64,000 bases of DNA from Archangium primigenium (lineage in GTDB: Bacteria > Myxococcota > Myxococcia > Myxococcales > Myxococcaceae). The translations under genes were made by a program, and so were the position numbers. Each line of letters opens with the position of its first letter. The stretch's first letter is position 1. The stretch lies in NCBI RefSeq assembly GCF_016904885.1, contig NZ_JADWYI010000001.1, forward strand, positions 6,696,001-6,760,000. Reading direction: 5' to 3'. This document shows positions 34,048 through 43,281 of this stretch, piece by piece. The notes under the pieces were generated by a model. It was not told the origin of the DNA, searched no databases, and was given only the letters and a program-made list of their open reading frames with translations.

Positions 34048-35043
34048 ATGAGAAACGTCCTGACCGGGAGCACCCGTCGTCTGTCTCGCGTGTCCACCAT
34101 CCTGTCCCGTGTCTGGATGTGTGCCCTGCTGGCGGTGGGGGCCTGTGGGCCGCTGGAGACCCCGCCCGAGGAGGAGCTCTGGGCGACGTCTTCCCAGGCC
34201 CTGGAGTCCCACGGAGGGCTGTCGGCCGCCGACCTGTCACTGCACGGGCTGTCGCTCAACGGCCTGTCCCTCAACGGCCTGTCGCTCAACGGGCTGTCGC
34301 TCAACGGCCTGTCCCTCAACGGCCTGTCCCTCAACGGGCTCGCGGCGGAAGCCTTCGCGCAGTGGTTCCAGGAGGACGCCGAGCTGCATGCCCAGGTGAT
34401 GAAGTACGTCGTGCGCTGTGCCGTCCCGGCGAACCAGACGCGGACCCACACGGCCGCGGACGGACGGAGCTGGACGTGGGCGGGCGGCCTGGGGCTGGCG
34501 CCCACGTGGAGCGACGGCGCCTCGGCCACCTTGACCGAGCAGCGCCTGGTCTCCGCGTGTCTGGCGGCCCACGCCAACAAGTTCGGGATTCAGGTGGCCA
34601 TGTCCGTGCTGGGCCGTGACGCCCGGGGCGCGGCGCTCGCCACGGCCTCCGACGAGGCCTGGCGCTTTCCCCTGCGCGAGGGCTGCTTCTTCGGCAACCT
34701 CTTCAACGGCGAGGGCATCTACGCCGGCAACGACAACCGGGGCCTCAACCACCGCAACAGCACGCCGCGCGCCTGCGCCCTGTCCATCAAGAAGTCCGGC
34801 CCCCCCGTGTGCGAGCCCCTCGTCCGCGTGGACTCGGACTGCTCGGCGATCTGCACCCTGGACGTCACGGGGCGCTTCTACGCGTCCTGTACCTCCAACG
34901 GCATCACCTACCCGGCGCTCACCACGCGGCTGCGCACCGAGGACCTCTACACGTGCGGCGACGGCGTCTGCCAGGTGAGCGAGTCCTGTGGCACCGGCAC
35001 CGAGTACGACAACTGCGCGGCGGATTGCGGCGCCTGCAAGTGA
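34048..35043 (+). CDS. Lipoprotein with LSLNG pentapeptide repeats and Cys-rich C-terminus
   Basis: A 331-aa protein with a lipoprotein signal (LLAVGAC). Residues 62-97 are seven tandem copies of LSL(N/H)G. A conserved central domain of unknown family follows (FAQWFQEDAELHAQVMKYVVRCAV, CFFGNLFNGEGIYAGND). The end (TCGDGVCQVSESC...CAADCGAC) is a CGDG-type disulfide motif common in exported delta-proteobacterial and myxobacterial proteins. ATG 34048 has GGAGGA 4-5 bp upstream. Likely surface-exposed; function unknown. Confidence 0.8.
   Translation: MRNVLTGSTRRLSRVSTILSRVWMCALLAVGACGPLETPPEEELWATSSQALESHGGLSAADLSLHGLSLNGLSLNGLSLNGLSLNGLSLNGLSLNGLAAEAFAQWFQEDAELHAQVMKYVVRCAVPANQTRTHTAADGRSWTWAGGLGLAPTWSDGASATLTEQRLVSACLAAHANKFGIQVAMSVLGRDARGAALATASDEAWRFPLREGCFFGNLFNGEGIYAGNDNRGLNHRNSTPRACALSIKKSGPPVCEPLVRVDSDCSAICTLDVTGRFYASCTSNGITYPALTTRLRTEDLYTCGDGVCQVSESCGTGTEYDNCAADCGACK
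34234..34338 (+). repeat. Seven tandem 15-bp units (LSLNG repeats)
   Basis: Seven direct repeats of ctgtcnctcaacggn (the first unit diverged, coding LSLHG) in frame inside the lipoprotein gene. Units differ at only one or two wobble positions. Confidence 0.9.
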
Positions 35044-35053
35044 GCCGCGGGGC

Positions 35054-36694
35054 TCACCCCCGACGCAGCAGGCCGAGCGCCAGGCCCTCGGCGAGCACAC
35101 GCGGCGGCACCTCGGCCTCGGCCCCGGGCGCGCGCGCCAGGGCCTCGAGGCCCGCGAGGAGCGAGGGCGCGCACGTGAGCACCTCCAGTCCCCGCCCCTT
35201 GCGCCGCAGCACGAAGCGCCACGGGCCCGGCGCCGGACGCCCCGCCACCTGCGCGAGCGAGTCCAGGCCACTCACCTCCAGCGCCTCGCTCGCCCAGGCC
35301 CGACCCGCGAGGTGACGGCGCAGGGCGCGCGCGGCGAACACCGCCTCGGTCAGATCCACCGGGAAGCCGCCCAGGCGCACCCCCTCGGCCAGGCCCACCT
35401 GCCCCGGCCCGGGCCCCGGCCCCGGCGCGCTCATCCGCCACGCGTTGGGCAGGAACGTCTCGAAGGACACCACCGCCGCGAGCCCCTCGTCCGGGTGCTC
35501 GCGCAGCACGCGCCGGCTCCAGGCCGCGAAGGCATGGCCCGGCGCGCGCTCCGGGGACTCGAAGAGCGCGCGGAACTCCGGGGACGCGGTGAAGTCGCGC
35601 AGCCGCTCGCGCGTGCCCGCCAGGAGCAGCCGCGACAGGGGCCAGTCCCGGTCCAGTTGCTCGGCCACCACCGCGAGCCGGAAGTCCGTCTCCGCGCGCG
35701 CCCCCTCCACGTCCTCCCCAGGCTCCGGGGCCGCGCCATACCCCACGGAGAACAGCGCCCACGGCGCGCTCTCGGCCGCGAGCGCGGGCACGGGGGGCGT
35801 CGACACGGAGAGCGGCAGCGGGGGCCGGGGCCCCGCGGGCACCACCCGGCGCAGCCGCCGCAGCGTGAGCAGCGCCACCTCCAGCGGGTGCCCATCCCCC
35901 TCGAACGTCACCGCGCGCAGCGCCGGGCAGCGCGGGACAAGCGCCTCCACCAGCGCGAGCAACTCCTCGCGCACCGGCTGGGTGTGGTCATCCACGTAGA
36001 GGCCCCGCGCCCCGCGCCGGGTGACGACCCCCCCGGCCACGTGCAGCTCGATGACGCGGTCCAGTGGGAAGTCCGCGAGCCCCGCGTCCAGGGGCAGCCC
36101 CGCCGCGAGCTGGTAGCTGAGCAGGTGCCCCAGGTCGAGCAGCAGCGGCAGGCCCGTGCGCGCGTGCAGCCGGGCCATGAAGTCCAACACGTGCAGCTCG
36201 CCCCGGCGCGCGAAGACGGCGGGGTTTTCCAACGCCAGCGGCACGCTCAAGTAGGACTGCACGTGAAGGGCATGCGCCGCGCAGTCGCGCACGCCGGCCT
36301 CGCTGAAGGGCGGCGTGACGTAGAGGTAGCCGGGGAAGGGCTGGCCCGCGGCGTGCCACCAGCCCACGTCGTTGCCCACCCAGGCGCTGTCCACCGCGCG
36401 CGCGTGCGCGTCCAGGGCGTGGAGCGCCGCGGCGGGCTCCAGCTCCGGGCCGTAGAGGTTGAGGTGCACCGGATGGAAGAGCACGGGCACTTCGCCGCGG
36501 CGCGTCCACAACTCGGGAAAGAGCGACGCCTGGGCGCGGGTTTCCTCCAGCGACAGGGGGGCGCTGTACTCCACGAAGTCGAAGAGGCCTGGCGCCTCGG
36601 CGAGCAGGCGGTAGGGATGGGGCGACTCCGCCGCGTCCAGGTTGCTGCTCAGCCCCAGGCCACGCCAGGGCAGTTGCCAGGTCAGGTCACGCAT
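35054..36694 (-). CDS. DUF692 (MNIO)-like metal-dependent oxidase with C-terminal extension
   Basis: A 546-aa protein. Residues 1-290 follow the TIM-barrel pattern of DUF692 multinuclear iron enzymes (MbnB/TglH/BufB relatives): FHPVHLN, LALENPAVFA, LLLDLGHLLSYQLAAG, VIELHVAGG, YVDDHTQPV and VTFEGDG hold the expected Glu, Asp and His ligands. The usual S-(D/E)-H-L block is GNDVGWW, so one His ligand is altered. Residues about 310-546 are an extra domain I cannot name. Known members modify Cys or other residues of ribosomal peptides; no obvious precursor peptide is adjacent. Convergent with the Cys-rich lipoprotein, 10 bp apart. Confidence 0.72.
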   Translation of the reverse strand: MRDLTWQLPWRGLGLSSNLDAAESPHPYRLLAEAPGLFDFVEYSAPLSLEETRAQASLFPELWTRRGEVPVLFHPVHLNLYGPELEPAAALHALDAHARAVDSAWVGNDVGWWHAAGQPFPGYLYVTPPFSEAGVRDCAAHALHVQSYLSVPLALENPAVFARRGELHVLDFMARLHARTGLPLLLDLGHLLSYQLAAGLPLDAGLADFPLDRVIELHVAGGVVTRRGARGLYVDDHTQPVREELLALVEALVPRCPALRAVTFEGDGHPLEVALLTLRRLRRVVPAGPRPPLPLSVSTPPVPALAAESAPWALFSVGYGAAPEPGEDVEGARAETDFRLAVVAEQLDRDWPLSRLLLAGTRERLRDFTASPEFRALFESPERAPGHAFAAWSRRVLREHPDEGLAAVVSFETFLPNAWRMSAPGPGPGPGQVGLAEGVRLGGFPVDLTEAVFAARALRRHLAGRAWASEALEVSGLDSLAQVAGRPAPGPWRFVLRRKGRGLEVLTCAPSLLAGLEALARAPGAEAEVPPRVLAEGLALGLLRRG

Positions 36695-37237: not shown

Positions 37238-37374
37238 CCCTCCCAAGGGGCTGTCGGAGATGACCCGGAGTGGGGTCGACTTCACCGGGTCATACCTGCC
37301 CCATCGGACAGATGGACTGAACCTCGCCAGTTATAAGACGCGTCTGGAGGGTGGGGTTAGGATCGTTTGTCCCC

Positions 37375-38811
37375 ATGCCGAGCCTCGCTCTTCCCCAGAG
37401 TCCGCCCGCGTCCCCGTCCTGGCTGAAGGCCTTCCGCGATCTGCCGCACACGTATGGCTTCCAACCGGTGAAGGTGGAGGGACGCCTGCCGCCGGAGCTG
37501 GAGGGCACGCTGGTGCGCGTGGGGCCGGTGACGTTCGGCGTGGGCGAGCAGCGCTACGGGCATTGGTTCGACGGGGATGGGGGCGTGCTCGCGGTGCGCC
37601 TGGGGGGCGGCGAGGCGCGCGCGGCGGCGCGGCTCATCGAGACGCCGAGCATCCGGGCCGAGCGCACCGCGGGCAAGGTGCTCTTCAGCAACTACGGCAC
37701 GCCGGCCCCCACGCTGTGGCGGCGGCTGTTCGGTGGGGTGAAGAACGCGGCCAACACCTCGGCGATGACGTGGAACGGGCGGCTGTTCGCGCTGGTGGAG
37801 GCCTCGCGCCCCACCGAGCTGTTGATGGATGACCTGCGCACGCTCGGCGAGACGGATCTGGATGGCCTGGTGGGGCCGGCCTTCTCCGCGCATCCCCACC
37901 CGGTGGTGCCGCGCAAGGCGTCCTACAACTTCGGCGTGCGCTACGGCGCCGTCACCTGGCTGGACCTGTACGAGCTGCCCGACGACAAGCCCGCCGTGCG
38001 GCACCTGGGGGGCCTGCCCCTGCCGGGCACCGTGCTGGTGCACGACTTCATCGCCACGGCCAACCACCTGGTCTTCCTGGTGGCGCCCATGCGCATGAAC
38101 CTCTTTCGCACGATGATGGGCCGGGGCAGCCTGTCGGAGAACTTCGAGTGGAAGCCGGAGCTGGGCACCGAGGTGATCGTCGTCCCCATCGATCGGCCGA
38201 GCAAGGCGGTGCGCTTCCAGGCGGAGCCCTTCCACGCGTGGCACTTCGGCAACGGCTTCGAGCAGGGCGGGCGCATCTACATCGACTTCGTGCGCTACCC
38301 GGACTTCCGCACCAACCAGTGGCTCGCCGAGCAGATGAAGGGCTGGGCGAACACGGAGATCGACGGCACGCTGCACCGGGCGACGCTGGACGTGAAGGCG
38401 GGCACGCTGCACTGCGAACAGGTGTCCGAGCGGCGCTGTGAGTTCCCCGGCGTCTCGCCGCTGCGCGCGGGCATCCGCCACCGCTACGTGTACCTGGCCG
38501 GCCACGTGGGACGCGAGACCTGGCGAGGCCCCCAGGACGCGGTGATCAAGGTGGACATGGACACGGGCGCGGAGACGGTGGTGCGCCTGGGCGACGAGCA
38601 CCACCCCTCCGAGCCGCTCTTCATCCCCCGCCCCGGCGGGAAGGCGGAGGACGACGGGTGGCTGCTCATCCAGGGCTACGACGCCGCCCAGGATCAGAGC
38701 TACATCGCGGTGCTGGACGCGAAGACGCCCCAGTCCGGCCCGGTGGCCCGGGTGGTGCTGGAGCATGTCTTCCCCTTCACCTTCCACGGCACCTGGGTGC
38801 CCAAGCGTTGA
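37375..38811 (+). CDS. Carotenoid oxygenase family protein
   Basis: A 478-aa carotenoid-cleavage dioxygenase (RPE65/CCO family), which splits a double bond of carotenoids or stilbenes using Fe(II) and O2. The four iron-binding His are in AHPHP, VHDFI, FHAWHFGNGFE and the C-terminal FTFHGTW; RYGHWFDGDGGV is the family N-terminal block. No signal peptide. ATG 37375 is preferred over an upstream in-frame GTG. Substrate unknown; myxobacteria make C40 carotenoids. Confidence 0.92.
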   Translation: MPSLALPQSPPASPSWLKAFRDLPHTYGFQPVKVEGRLPPELEGTLVRVGPVTFGVGEQRYGHWFDGDGGVLAVRLGGGEARAAARLIETPSIRAERTAGKVLFSNYGTPAPTLWRRLFGGVKNAANTSAMTWNGRLFALVEASRPTELLMDDLRTLGETDLDGLVGPAFSAHPHPVVPRKASYNFGVRYGAVTWLDLYELPDDKPAVRHLGGLPLPGTVLVHDFIATANHLVFLVAPMRMNLFRTMMGRGSLSENFEWKPELGTEVIVVPIDRPSKAVRFQAEPFHAWHFGNGFEQGGRIYIDFVRYPDFRTNQWLAEQMKGWANTEIDGTLHRATLDVKAGTLHCEQVSERRCEFPGVSPLRAGIRHRYVYLAGHVGRETWRGPQDAVIKVDMDTGAETVVRLGDEHHPSEPLFIPRPGGKAEDDGWLLIQGYDAAQDQSYIAVLDAKTPQSGPVARVVLEHVFPFTFHGTWVPKR

Positions 38812-38824
38812 GCGGCTCCGCTCA
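38809..38824. terminator. Small hairpin spanning two convergent stop codons
   Basis: TGAGCG (38809-38814) pairs with CGCTCA (38819-38824) around a 4-nt loop; each arm contains the stop codon of one converging gene (carotenoid oxygenase and rtcB). It may mark transcription ends from both sides; no T-tract. Confidence 0.3.
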
Positions 38825-39979
38825 GCCCTTGAGGACCGCGAGCGGCGTGAGCCGCAGCACCGGCGTCACCAGGTCCGCCTCGTCCTCCAGGACCTCGGTG
38901 ATGTCGCGGTAGACGGCCGGGGCCTCCTCCACCAGCGAGGCCACGCGGCCCCCGTCGAACACCACGCGCCGCAGGGCATGTGACAGGGACGCCGGACGGA
39001 TGCGTGCCCGGGCCTCCTTGCGCGTCATCACCCGCCCCGCCCCGTGCGAGCACGAGCGGAACGCCCGCGCCTCCCCTCGCCCCATCACCACGTAGGACGC
39101 CGTCCCCATGCTCCCGGGAATGAGGCCCCGCGCTCCCGCGGCCAGCCCCACCGCGCCCTTGCGGTGCACGAGCAGCGCGCGGCCGAAGTGCGTCTCGGCC
39201 GCGACGTGGTTGTGGGGGACGTCCACGTGGGACGCGCGGTCCGGCTCCCGCCCCAAGGCCTCGGCGAGCACCGTGGCCGCCCGGGACAGCAGGTGCTCGC
39301 GGTTGGCGCGCGCGAAGCGGCAGGCCCACGCGGTGTCCGCGAGGCAGGCCGCGCCCTCGGGTGTGTCCGTGCGCAGTGCCGGGAGGCTGCCTTCGCCGAG
39401 GCGCTCGGCCACCCGCACGTGATGGCCGGCGATGGCGGCCCCCACGCCCCGGGAGCCCGTGTGCACCAGCAGCCAGAGGTCCCCCGCTGCGTCCCGGTCC
39501 AACTCCAGGAAGTGGTTGCCTCCCCCGAGCGTGCCCAGATGCCGGGGTGCCAGCCGCTCCCACTCACGCAGGAGCCGGTGGGTGGACAGGTCGGGGGCGG
39601 CGAGCGCCTCCGGTGGTGACACGCCCCGCCCCCGGTGGACCGCGTCGCCCACGGGCACGGCCCGCGCGAACGTGGCGAGCAGCCGCTCCAGCGCCGCCCG
39701 GTCGAGCGCGGCCGCGGGGTAGTCGAAGCGCACGCCGCCCACCCCGCAGCCGAGGTCTCCGCCGAGCGCCCCCGGGGCGACGTGCCGCTCGGTGGCGAAG
39801 ACGGTCCCCACGGCGACGCCCTCGGACACGTGGATGTCGGGCATGGCGGCCACGTGCTCGACGACATAGGGCTGGAGCGCGAGGTGCTGGAGCTGCTTCA
39901 CCGCGCCCGGGGGCACGTCCCGGGCCCAGGCGAGGATGGGCAGGGCGCCCGGAGGCGCGTCGAGGCGGCGCGGCATCAT
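38822..39979 (-). CDS. rtcB: RtcB family RNA ligase
   Basis: A 385-aa RtcB, joining RNA 2',3'-cyclic phosphate or 3'-phosphate ends to 5'-OH ends with GTP and Mn2+. MPDIHVSEGVAVGTVFAT, GGDLGCGVGG (metal Cys), TLGGGNHFLEL (metal His), HNHVAAE and SCSHGAGR (guanylylated His) are all present. Its ATG at 39979 overlaps the RbfA-like stop (ATGA), so the two are translationally coupled. Confidence 0.94.
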   Translation of the reverse strand: MMPRRLDAPPGALPILAWARDVPPGAVKQLQHLALQPYVVEHVAAMPDIHVSEGVAVGTVFATERHVAPGALGGDLGCGVGGVRFDYPAAALDRAALERLLATFARAVPVGDAVHRGRGVSPPEALAAPDLSTHRLLREWERLAPRHLGTLGGGNHFLELDRDAAGDLWLLVHTGSRGVGAAIAGHHVRVAERLGEGSLPALRTDTPEGAACLADTAWACRFARANREHLLSRAATVLAEALGREPDRASHVDVPHNHVAAETHFGRALLVHRKGAVGLAAGARGLIPGSMGTASYVVMGRGEARAFRSCSHGAGRVMTRKEARARIRPASLSHALRRVVFDGGRVASLVEEAPAVYRDITEVLEDEADLVTPVLRLTPLAVLKG

Positions 39980-40389
39980 TCCGCACCCCCTTCCCCATCG
40001 CCCGCGTCCCACGGGGCGCCCACGCCCACGTAGACGAAGCGCAGGTGGGGCACCCGCTTGAGGTCCAGGCCCTGCGCGAGCTGGGCGCGGATGAAGCCGC
40101 TGGCACGCGCCAGGGCGTCCTCCACGGGACGCGGCCCCTCCAGGGCGGCCTCGGGAGGCAAGGTGAAGCCGATGCGGGCATTGCGCCCGTCGGGGGTGAG
40201 CGCCAGGGACGTCACGGCGACGCCCTCGAGCACGGGGTCGGACAGCTCTCCGCGGAAGAGGCGGGCCACTTCCTGGAACAGGGCGGACTGCACGCGCAGG
40301 TGACGCGCGGGAAGAGGATCGGAAGACAGCGAGGACGGCTCCGCCTCACCGCGCGAGGCGCGGCGGCGGGGGTGCTTGGAAGAAGTCAT
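39976..40389 (-). CDS. rbfA: RbfA-like ribosome-binding factor
   Basis: A 137-aa protein with the RbfA KH-like fold signature: RVQSALFQEVARLFRGELSDPVLEGVAVTSLALTPDGRNARIGF, LARASGFIRAQLAQGLDLKRVPHLRFVYV. RbfA binds the 30S neck during 16S maturation and cold adaptation. The basic N-terminus (SSKHPRRRASRG) is extra. The usual infB/truB neighbours are absent, so this could be a second, specialised copy. ATG 40389 is assumed; an in-frame GTG at 40431 would add 14 residues. The 268 bp upstream show no other gene. Confidence 0.75.
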   Translation of the reverse strand: MTSSKHPRRRASRGEAEPSSLSSDPLPARHLRVQSALFQEVARLFRGELSDPVLEGVAVTSLALTPDGRNARIGFTLPPEAALEGPRPVEDALARASGFIRAQLAQGLDLKRVPHLRFVYVGVGAPWDAGDGEGGAE

Positions 40390-40657
40390 GAAGAGGAACG
40401 GTTCCCGTGAATCAGTTCGACAGAACTCCACGGCGACGCCCGCGCACCGAGGCGGCGAGCCCGTTCATCCCGACTTCAGCGGGGAGCGGCGCACACCCGG
40501 TCAGGCGCGCATCGACGCGGAACGATCCGAAACACCCTGAAGGACAGACCCCATGGCACACCTCCCGCCGCGCGAAGCCCCGCGCGGACCTGGTCGGCGA
40601 CAGGGACGTAAATCCCCCGGAAACCTGACAACGGCGCTCCCCCCCTCGTGCCGCGCG

Positions 40658-43198
40658 CTACGGGGCCGTCCAGAAGCCGCTGAGGACCTTGGGCGTCGAG
40701 GCCACGTGCAGCTCGTGGTACGCGCCGGGCCGCAGGGGCTGGCGCGGCGTCAGCCGGTATGTCGAGGGCGGCTCGAGCGTGAGGTCCATCGGCGGATAGT
40801 CCTGCACCGAGCCCCCCTTGGCGTCGTAGGTGATGAGCTGGAAGTAGGTGGCGTTCCACTGGGGCGGCGACTGCGGGCGGTTCACCCGCACCGCGATCGA
40901 CGTCGTCACCGGCACCTGCTCCGCGCCGGTGGCCGGCTGGAACTCCACGACCCGGATGGGCCCGTGGGCGAGCCGCAGGCGCACCCGCGTGTCCTCGAAC
41001 TCCCGGCCGAAGCGGTCGTGCACGGGTGGAATGACGACGCGCAGCTCGTGCTCCTCTTGCAGCGGCAGGCCCGGGAACACGTCGATGTAGGACTCGTTGA
41101 GCGCCACCCGCACGCCGCTGTCCGGGCGCACCCCGCCGTCCAGCTCCTCCACGTGGCCCGTCAGCACGTTGCTCCGGCCGTAGTCGTGGAGCACCCTGCC
41201 CGTGGTGCGCAGCCGCAGCGGCTCGTTGTTGGACAGCAGGATGAACTGGCCATCGTCCACGGTCAGCGTGCAGCCCGAGTCGTCCCGGGTGCCGTAACAC
41301 TCGAGCTGGTACGGCGCCTCGCGGGGGTCCGGCTGGAGGCCGGCGTCGCCCGCGGTCTCGAAGTCGATCACCCCCTTGCGGCCCTCGGGCAGCTTCCACG
41401 TGGGCAGCTCACCGGGCGCCGACACGAGCCGGGGCGAGACCACCAGCCGGTAGCGGTGCGCCGCCGCCAGGGGTCGCGAGGGCCGCAGGCGCAAGGTGGC
41501 CGGCTGGCCCTCCACGGGCTCCCATCGGCCGTTCACCCGCTCGGCCCGCGACAGGTTCCACAGGGACACGTCACTGAACTCGGGCCGCTCCACGGGCCGG
41601 TCGAACGTCACCGTCACCTCCGTGGTCGGCTCCACGTCGTGCTCGCCCGGGCCCGGCCGCGTCGCGACCACCCGCGCCAGCCCGCCTCCGGACGCGGGAT
41701 CCAACGGCTCCCAGGCGACCTCTCCCGCCGCGGCGGCGTGGCCTCCGTGGCAGACCTCCAGGCCGTTGTCCGAACCCAGGCACACGCCCAGCTCGAAGGG
41801 CAGGTTCCGGCCATGCGCGAAGGACGGGTACTGCGTGCTGCCGCCCTCGCGGCCCCGGAACACGGGCGCCGGCGCGGGATCCTGCGCGCACAGGGGATAG
41901 ACCTCGCCCAGGGGCATCTCCGTCCACCCGGCCTCCAGCGCCCAGAAGTGCACCGCGGCGAGCCGGAAGTTGCCACACCCGTCCGCCAGCAGCTTGCCCC
42001 CCGCGCCCGGGTCCAAGGTCGTCTGGTAGTGCGAGGCCATGGCGCGAAAGCGGTACTCGTCCGGGCGGCGCTCCTGGGCATTGAAGGCGAGGGGGTCACG
42101 CACGTCGGACAGGGCGCGCATGTAGACCCACGGCAGCTCGCCGTTGGGCTCGCCCGCCTTGCGCTGGATCTCCCGCGAGGGCCCGGCGAAGAGGAAGCCC
42201 GAGGGGTGATCGTGCAGATCGAAGACGCCCCGCTGGCCGCTCTCCCGGTCCGACGGCAGGGAGAGCACCGGGTGGCCCACGCGCCAGAAGCGGCCATCGC
42301 GGCCCTCGCGGAACGCCTCCACGAAGTGCTTGAGCGGCGAGGCGTAGCTCGTGGTGACGGGCCGGATCATCGACAAGAGCACGCGGTGGCCCAGCTCGTC
42401 GTAGGCGAGCGCGTTGCGGCAGCCCACGTCCCAGATCTGCTCGACCCCCGGTCGCGAGCCCTCGCCCTGGGAGGAGTCCGAGATCTGGTTCCAGGCGAAC
42501 GCCTTGGACCCGGACACGCGCTTGCCGTGGAAGAGCAGCGGCTTCCAGACGGACGGATCGCCGCGCATGATGAGATCCAGCGCCCCATCCGGCGCGCTGC
42601 CGAGCGTCAGATCCGGACAGGCCTCGAGGTACTTGAGCGGCCGGGTGTCCATGCCCAACGGCAGCGGCACGTCCTCCACCTGGGCGGCTTCGCCCGGCCG
42701 CCAGCGCACCAGCTTGAGCGGCTTGTGGCGCTCGCGCGGCCGGAAGGCCACCCACACCGTGCCCGAGGCGTCCGCCACCACGTCCAGCGCGCCGACGAGC
42801 TCGGGGCGCAGATCGAGCAGGGGCTCGCGCCGCCAGGGCTTCTCGTAGCCGCCCCAGGCGATGTCGAACCCGGAGCGATCCTCGGGCGGGAACACCACGG
42901 CCACCGTGTCCCGGTCGAGGATCACCGGCCGCCAGCGCGGCTCGCGCCAGGAGAGCTGCTGGGGCGGGATGCTGTTGAGCTGCACCGGGTAGGCGTCGTT
43001 GGCCAGCGCGTGGCGCGAGGCCTTCCAGGGCAGCTTCGCGGGCAGGAAGCGGGCGGCGAGCGGATGGTCCGCATCGGGGTCCACCTGGGGATCCGTGCCC
43101 GCATCCGACAGGCCCGTGCCGGGCTTCGCCGTCGGACAACCGAGCCCCAGGAGCAGGAACGAGAGCAGCAGGAGCCAGGTCGTGGGTGTGGGACGCAT
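40658..43198 (-). CDS. Large lipoprotein with Ig-like/SbsA domains
   Basis: An 846-aa exported protein with signal LLLLSFLLLGLGC (lipobox-like). The first ~500 residues are a unique region rich in Trp/Arg (LSWREPRWRPVILDRD, WGGYEKPWRREPLLDL), perhaps a propeller-like fold. From about 510 there are bacterial Ig-like_5 (SbsA) repeats: VVATRPGPGEHDVEPTTEVTVTFDRPVE..., and VVEFQPATGAEQVPVTTSIAVRVNRP near 750, each followed by HRYRLVVSP- or AYHELHVAS-type strands. Probably a cell-surface protein; no enzymatic motif seen. Confidence 0.8.
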   Translation of the reverse strand: MRPTPTTWLLLLSFLLLGLGCPTAKPGTGLSDAGTDPQVDPDADHPLAARFLPAKLPWKASRHALANDAYPVQLNSIPPQQLSWREPRWRPVILDRDTVAVVFPPEDRSGFDIAWGGYEKPWRREPLLDLRPELVGALDVVADASGTVWVAFRPRERHKPLKLVRWRPGEAAQVEDVPLPLGMDTRPLKYLEACPDLTLGSAPDGALDLIMRGDPSVWKPLLFHGKRVSGSKAFAWNQISDSSQGEGSRPGVEQIWDVGCRNALAYDELGHRVLLSMIRPVTTSYASPLKHFVEAFREGRDGRFWRVGHPVLSLPSDRESGQRGVFDLHDHPSGFLFAGPSREIQRKAGEPNGELPWVYMRALSDVRDPLAFNAQERRPDEYRFRAMASHYQTTLDPGAGGKLLADGCGNFRLAAVHFWALEAGWTEMPLGEVYPLCAQDPAPAPVFRGREGGSTQYPSFAHGRNLPFELGVCLGSDNGLEVCHGGHAAAAGEVAWEPLDPASGGGLARVVATRPGPGEHDVEPTTEVTVTFDRPVERPEFSDVSLWNLSRAERVNGRWEPVEGQPATLRLRPSRPLAAAHRYRLVVSPRLVSAPGELPTWKLPEGRKGVIDFETAGDAGLQPDPREAPYQLECYGTRDDSGCTLTVDDGQFILLSNNEPLRLRTTGRVLHDYGRSNVLTGHVEELDGGVRPDSGVRVALNESYIDVFPGLPLQEEHELRVVIPPVHDRFGREFEDTRVRLRLAHGPIRVVEFQPATGAEQVPVTTSIAVRVNRPQSPPQWNATYFQLITYDAKGGSVQDYPPMDLTLEPPSTYRLTPRQPLRPGAYHELHVASTPKVLSGFWTAP

Positions 43199-43281
43199 GG
43201 GGACCCACTCTCCCTTGGCCCGCCCCACCCCACCACCCCGAGATCAGGGGGGGTGAAAAGGCCGGGCGTCCGGCTCCACCC

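Follow-up and report, generated by a model that had tools for sequence, protein, structure and literature searches.

The window, by which we mean the whole stretch of 64,000 nucleotides analysed here from the 9.49 Mb genome of Archangium primigenium, carries two overlapping minus-strand genes (Table 1), and the initial annotation, which described them as an rbfA-like gene translationally coupled to rtcB, had placed both genes and their shared ATGA correctly. The RbfA-like protein consists of a basic N-terminus, a core spanning residues 29-120 and a short tail devoid of the C-terminal segment found in canonical RbfA. On inspection, no third gene of the module was noticed in the neighbourhoods examined, and neither rtcA nor rtcR was noticed beside the pair in the window. 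Directly 5' of the rbfA-like start, at 40390-40410, lies a GGGAACCGTT-like stretch; of the 16 relatives in the alignment 14 retain it, 7 of them exactly. Its role could be in regulation or in ribosome binding, or it could belong to the coding sequence if the RbfA-like protein starts further upstream.

Table 1. Features of the rbfA-like-rtcB locus and its flanks, in window coordinates.
Feature	Position	Strand	Basis or remark
rbfA-like (RbfA paralogue), 137 aa	39976-40389	-	PF02033 match, fold model
RBFA/KH core in rbfA-like	40030-40305	-	Pfam positions 1-91 of 105
A-S-G codons (residues 96-98), AxG helix-kink-helix motif	40096-40104	-	A and G columns common with canonical RbfA
rtcB of the RbfA-linked clade, 385 aa	38822-39979	-	PF01139 match, intact active-site motifs, tree
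ATGA overlap of rbfA-like stop and rtcB start	39976-39979	-	sequence
RPE65-family protein, flanking	37351-38811	+	no obvious relation to the pair
Long protein with bacterial Ig-like domain, flanking	40658-43228	-	no obvious relation to the pair

The downstream protein passes the Pfam RtcB model (PF01139) with 288 bits, can be aligned to the solved RtcB 1uc2, and belongs to an alignment of 12 rows in which the motif columns D, C, N-H, H, H, H and K are invariant. With the metal- and GMP-binding motifs of RtcB taken as its active site, the active-site motifs of the window RtcB are intact, and GTP- and Mn-dependent ligation of 2',3'-cyclic-phosphate to 5'-OH ends is predicted. It lies far under the cut-offs of the NCBIfam models for RtcB relatives, including the PrfH-coupled ones, with 130.8 against 271.8 for the RtcB2 model TIGR03073 and 166.3 against 407 for NF007153. 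A tree of 85 RtcBs built with a quick method brought all 40 RbfA-linked ligases together (support 97*) and resolved within them a clade II (11 rows, 100*) and a clade I (28 rows, 94), the latter reaching 95* when joined by the ligase of locus L122. The RbfA-linked ligases stood apart from the RtcA-linked and PrfH-type RtcBs of the window genome and from the ligase near PrfH in another myxococcal genome (G158), with the PrfH-type ligase of the window genome and that of G158 on long branches. Identification of the window ligase as a PrfH-type RtcB2 was rejected on account of both the RtcB2 scores and its different tree group. The RtcA-linked RtcB of this genome (L102) lies beside genes recognized by eye as RtcA-like and RtcR-like, and is about 38% identical to the window RtcB.

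PrfH itself gave no match over cut-off in the window genome, where the gene beside the window rtcB is instead the rbfA-like one; among the matches listed, PrfH exceeds the cut-off in at least 1 of 195 Myxococcota genomes (G158). Elsewhere in the window genome we observed a PrfH-type RtcB2 (L101:4438-5634; contig C1, ~8.6014-8.6026 Mb), which passes both TIGR03073 (444.6 bits) and NF007153 and lies immediately downstream of a run of proA-like, rsfS and rlmH-like genes, the last of these scoring under the RlmH cut-offs. It would represent a second ribosome-linked RtcB with no PrfH over cut-off in the same genome.

The upstream protein passes Pfam RBFA (PF02033) with 57 bits against a gathering cut-off of 34.7 and fails the NCBIfam rbfA equivalog model TIGR00082 (37.6 against 51.15), which marks it as a divergent RbfA. 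A second, canonical rbfA near infB, whose possible presence had been raised at the outset, does exist in this genome (113 bits, C1:2967262): it follows infB and DUF503 in the order nusA-like, infB, DUF503, rbfA, truB-like, rpsO-like, pnp-like, where infB was recognized by its G-domain motif, DUF503 by Pfam and the remaining genes by eye. As the canonical copy occupies the infB operon, the window copy, which lies outside that operon, is a paralogue; the proposal that it is the sole rbfA of the genome was rejected. Thus, of the original description as RbfA, a ribosome-maturation KH protein, membership in the RBFA family and the KH type II fold stand, and the protein is a paralogue rather than the maturation factor itself.

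AlphaFold2 predicted an alpha-beta-beta-alpha-beta arrangement (KH type II, RbfA topology) from the window sequence alone (pLDDT 75), and RbfA topology was likewise predicted from 11 clade-II RbfA-like sequences (pLDDT 81). When these models were used in Foldseek searches, ranks 1-18 for the window protein were taken by 14 named RbfA entries and 4 mitochondrial small-subunit intermediates (matched chain not named), and ranks 1-23 for the clade-II model by 19 RbfA entries and 4 such intermediates, their chains also not named. An alignment of canonical and linked proteins, made without L115 and two canonical rows (L023, L031), showed that the two groups have in common: 1) a basic residue opening helix 1; 2) the Asp-Pro of the alpha1/beta1 linker; 3) an AxG kink with a following Arg; and 4) a basic-x-x-P-x-L-x-F end. 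In clade II the Pro (45%) and the kink Ala (55%) are less well conserved. RbfA is reported to touch 16S rRNA through its alpha1/beta1 linker, helix-kink-helix (the AxG motif) and alpha3/beta3 loop, over the h28/h44/h45 region and the 3' end (PMC9917171), and most of the residues common to the canonical and linked proteins sit in these elements as delineated in the part of that paper used here. Hence, the 16S-touching elements of RbfA appear to have been largely kept in the paralogue. In contrast, an Asp after the last strand that is present in 35 of 35 aligned canonical rows is mostly replaced in the linked proteins, and the canonical C-terminal segment following it is absent from most of the linked rows, so the contacts of the RbfA-like protein with the 30S may differ from those of canonical RbfA. 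A quick-method tree, of short rows and with long branches, likewise split 44 linked or orphan RbfA-like proteins from 37 canonical RbfAs (support 94, not starred). Many clade-II proteins (L111, L113, L114, L117) additionally display an N-terminal segment with the consensus D-D-G-x-D-P-R followed by a basic stretch, which is perhaps partner-binding.

To describe the distribution of the pair in Myxococcota we hand-picked 78 RbfA-like and 85 RtcB rows from the matches listed for 195 genomes, leaving out the rows of canonical RbfA and the second half of a split gene in G083. This type of rtcB is found directly downstream on the same strand at 72 of the 78 RbfA-like loci (including a decayed one in G098), with a spacing of -11 to 173 nt in match coordinates; the six loci without a following rtcB are in G146, G031, G032, G037, G155 and G016. 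The pair is present in at least 72 of the 195 genomes, and 66 of the 72 paired loci belong to a single family (f1, 96 genomes); in G011 the ligase is accompanied by an RbfA-like gene recovered via the profile. The adjacency noted at one locus by the initial annotation is thus conserved across the phylum and reaches other phyla, and neither of the two circumstances named there as speaking against it, a sole rbfA in the genome and an unconserved adjacency, holds; the observation is confirmed as real and larger than was claimed. In the decayed locus of G098 (L109; C1, ~370364-371138) residues 1-85 of the rbfA-like gene abut residues 172-346 of rtcB, as if a single deletion had taken out the junction of the two genes. 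At L080 (G083) and L077 (G104) the rbfA-like frame is split beside a full-length rtcB, which may equally reflect a sequence error or loss of the partner.

A scan of GTDB genomes with the aligned clade ligases, from which the best 80 loci were taken, recovered further members in MAGs of Candidatus Parabeggiatoa (two), Planctomycetaceae (one), Schlesneria (one) and another member of Planctomycetota (one), as well as in two uncultured MAGs and in records of Deltaproteobacteria or Myxococcales, four of these last being duplicates of genomes in the count above. An RbfA-like ORF is present at 15 of the 16 clade loci, and the exception (L118) starts at a contig end, its other half (L129) having the RbfA-like gene. 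We found no such ORF at 158 RtcB loci outside the clade, of which 80 are viral, 64 are genomic and 14 come from Myxococcota; 31 of the 64 genomic ones were assigned outside the clade by the RtcB tree and the rest by identity. The RbfA-like HMM had been trained on most of these positives, since 10 of the 15 loci supplied rows for it and 4 more duplicate those rows, leaving L122 as the sole independent one; phmmer with the window protein (P0001) alone returned matches at L087, L093, L112, L113, L116 and L129, and Pfam detects the RbfA-like protein in 7 of the 8 outside genomes with no use of the HMM. Canonical RbfA is also present in all 8 of these genomes.

Within Planctomycetota (294 genomes) we obtained 28 RbfA-like matches in 26 genomes at 93.6 bits or more, the next best match scoring 51.5. 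An rtcB adjoins 9 of the 28; all nine ligases, at 434 bits or more, are adjacent to an RbfA-like gene, and the next ligases, at 344 bits or less, lie elsewhere. At the other 19 loci (including L208-L210, L212-L215 and L217) no rtcB was found alongside, contig ends being a possible cause in some cases, and canonical RbfA is also present in 21 of 24 Planctomycetota genomes checked, and in most of the genomes where the short paralogue has no rtcB beside it. In the class of Parabeggiatoa, which we take to be Gammaproteobacteria, two of 369 genomes have the RbfA-like protein: one match is the query's own and the other (G495) has no rtcB in its locus. G197, G198 and G195 gave rows to the query alignment A2, so that their matches, two of them in the Planctomycetota search, are those of the query itself. 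Confinement of the RbfA-like protein to the company of RtcB was accordingly rejected, and its occurrence with no neighbouring rtcB implies that it has a role without this ligase. From the many orphans in Planctomycetota it would seem that the ligase needs the RbfA-like protein and not the reverse. Plasmid origin of the system is unsupported (best identity 38% among 30 plasmid records listed of 111 matched), as is viral origin (best identity 40% and no RbfA-like ORF among the best 80 viral loci), and membership in a known anti-phage family was rejected, with no PADLOC match for four proteins representing both partners from both sub-clades.

The coupling of the two genes is tight at the nucleotide level. 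Among 54 junctions, 50 have an in-frame ATG or GTG that shares bases with the RbfA-like stop as ATGA or GTGA, and two more have a TTG that does so as TTGA. Stop and start may therefore overlap as NTGA in 52 of the 54, which come from several phyla; as the start nearest the stop was chosen in this count, these are possible rather than proven starts. The set comprised 55 ORFs, one of which (L065) has no junction, after removal of four repeats (L119, L120, L123, L124) and of the broken genes at L077 and L080, and many of its loci are close relatives among which repeats of one species may remain. L122 lies outside this set: its RbfA-like frame continues into rtcB with no NTGA junction, and its provisional classification as a clade RtcB with no RbfA-like partner was rejected when a whole-locus search found the RbfA-like sequence running into the ligase. 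The pairwise distances of the two partners are strongly correlated (r = 0.93, 39 pairs, Mantel P = 0.0001), also within clade I (0.91) and clade II (0.73, P = 0.0009). In 11 genomes the distances of canonical RbfA also correlate with those of the linked RtcB, at r = 0.71, and of the linked RbfA, at r = 0.75, which indicates that shared ancestry accounts for part of the co-divergence; once canonical RbfA is allowed for, the two partners show a partial correlation of 0.75 over the same number of genomes, a value that carries no P-value.

Paralogy beside a canonical RbfA, tight coupling, co-divergence, co-occurrence in different phyla and intact ligase motifs are all apparent at the sequence level. 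Together they are consistent with a two-gene RNA-repair module in which the RbfA-like protein brings RtcB to broken 16S rRNA on the 30S, a reading to which we would give about an even chance. In such a module the RbfA-like protein would bind free or damaged 30S at the RbfA site in the 30S neck, i.e. at h28, the h28/h44 and h44/h45 linkers and the 16S 3' end, would shift or hold the top of h44, and would present a 2',3'-cyclic-phosphate/5'-OH break in the 16S 3' region to RtcB for resealing. In published work, the tops of h44 and h45 are displaced when RbfA binds (PMC8201178), and RbfA also binds the mature 30S, from which it is removed by YjeQ (PMC4436671). Known breaks of 16S rRNA map to this neck. 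One candidate source of the break is a colicin E3-type cut in the decoding site, and another is a MazF-type cut close to the 3' end. Cleavage by colicin E3 falls between A1493 and G1494, and the resulting ends are sealed by RtcB2 on the split 30S (PMC9223846). MazF cleaves on the 5' side of the anti-Shine-Dalgarno sequence, and the rRNA is re-ligated by RtcB (PMC13247085, PMC10630183). The RbfA-like protein would thus perform 30S recognition for its own RtcB, leaving the splitting of the 70S, which PrfH initiates in the RtcB2 pathway, to other factors. We read the RbfA-like protein as the probable targeting factor and RtcB as an acquired effector because the former occurs alone, whereas no ligase with available upstream sequence was found to lack it.

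A more specific form of this proposal, which we advance tentatively and rate somewhat below an even chance, is that the RbfA paralogue serves as a 30S "nick presenter", docking at the split damaged 30S, swinging h44/h45 to a displaced position like that seen in assembly and handing the broken strand to RtcB. If so, PrfH-independent ribosome repair would extend across Myxococcota, Planctomycetota and some Gammaproteobacteria, and the last step of ribosome assembly would have been re-used as a repair state. A precedent for recruitment by RbfA is seen in human mitochondria, where, according to the part of PMC10828496 that we cite, METTL15, a methyltransferase acting on h44, is brought to the small subunit by RBFA, and the C-terminal helix of RBFA is needed for this recognition. 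METTL15 differs from RtcB in being a methyltransferase rather than a ligase. The helix that it uses falls in the part missing from the RbfA-like protein, which counts against a repair module. So do the commonness of the pair in one family (66 of 96 f1 genomes), unlike that of a sporadic anti-toxin island, and the orphan RbfA-like loci, the split frames in G083 and G104, L122 with its missing NTGA junction, the replaced Asp after the last strand, the portion of the co-divergence explained by common ancestry, and the lack of a PADLOC match for the four proteins.

The same frequency in f1 would fit a reading of the RbfA-like protein as a second maturation or stress RbfA (e.g. for cold or stationary phase), with RtcB working on pre-16S or on rRNA fragments in the ordinary course of maturation rather than repairing damage, and RbfA does act on h44/h45 and 3'-end maturation (PMC8201178, PMC9917171, in the parts cited here); the Planctomycetota RbfA-like genes with no adjoining rtcB would fit as well. 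We nevertheless consider this improbable, given that canonical RbfA is kept alongside in all 8 genomes of one check and 21 of 24 of another, and that the presence of the pair in 72 of the 195 Myxococcota genomes, a lower bound, suggests that 16S maturation does not generally need it. Alternatively, the RbfA-like protein might have left the ribosome altogether and function as a KH RNA-binding subunit taking RtcB to cut tRNA, tmRNA or mRNA. This seems unlikely to us in view of the top Foldseek matches, which are RbfA entries or small-subunit assembly intermediates, and of the position of most residues shared with canonical RbfA in the reported 16S-contact elements, although the strong divergence from canonical RbfA with loss of the C-terminal segment is in its favour, as is the presence of tRNA genes and the tmRNA gene ssrA among the candidate E. 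coli RtcB targets in the cited part of PMC10630183.

It could also be argued that an old operon arrangement has merely been kept by inertia, with the two proteins acting independently, and the RbfA-like genes that have no rtcB alongside (6 of 78 loci in Myxococcota, 19 of 28 in Planctomycetota, and G495) are compatible with this. However, the RbfA-like gene at 15 of 16 clade loci with the sole exception at a contig end, the frequency of possible NTGA overlaps (52 of 54 junctions, several phyla), and the persistence of the distance correlation after allowing for canonical RbfA make inertia a highly improbable explanation.

Delivery of RtcB to a broken 30S by the RbfA paralogue would most closely resemble the RtcB2-PrfH system (TIGR03073/TIGR03072; NF007153), likewise a two-gene unit of an RtcB ligase and a ribosome-acting partner (the role of the RbfA-like protein being our proposal) with the 30S decoding region as the proposed target; the differences are that the partner in the window is an RbfA paralogue and not a release factor, and that the ligase falls under the RtcB2 cut-offs and in another tree group. 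In its relevant part, a 2019 review (PMC6514570) portrays PrfH-RtcB as sporadic in occurrence and spread by horizontal transfer, and mentions the coupling of RtcB to PrfH and none to RbfA. The RtcA-RtcB operon with RtcR shares with the window pair an RtcB-family ligase with intact active-site motifs, and differs in representing the separate RtcB of the window genome described above. In a literature search the papers listed with both RtcB and RbfA dealt with other subjects and none linked RbfA to colicin E3, although Burroughs and Aravind 2016 and a paper on Myxococcus xanthus RtcB paralogues may mention the pairing, and publications on RbfA paralogues or homologues concerned, by title, only S. 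aureus or mitochondrial RbfA and mitoribosomes. Thus, rbfA-like-rtcB looks like an apparently new, PrfH-free form of ribosome-directed RtcB repair, to judge from its predicted function. PrfH-RtcB2 is the main known case of a ligase unit dedicated to ribosome repair. If RtcB has indeed been coupled a second time, independently, to a factor that binds the 30S, this would imply that 16S breaks occur often enough for dedicated repair devices to be selected, and would suggest that RbfA-induced displacement of h44 exposes the broken strand. It would also provide one clear testable substrate for a branch of RtcB, and would point to a role for the second RbfA in Planctomycetota and Myxococcota.

Elsewhere in the window we noticed a plus-strand gene (34048-35043) for a lipoprotein-like protein with SLNGL-type repeats and no Pfam match, and convergent with it, on the minus strand (35054-36694), a gene for an MNIO enzyme (PF05114, MbnB/TglH/ChrH, 95.7 bits). 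These two genes possibly specify a modified repeat peptide.
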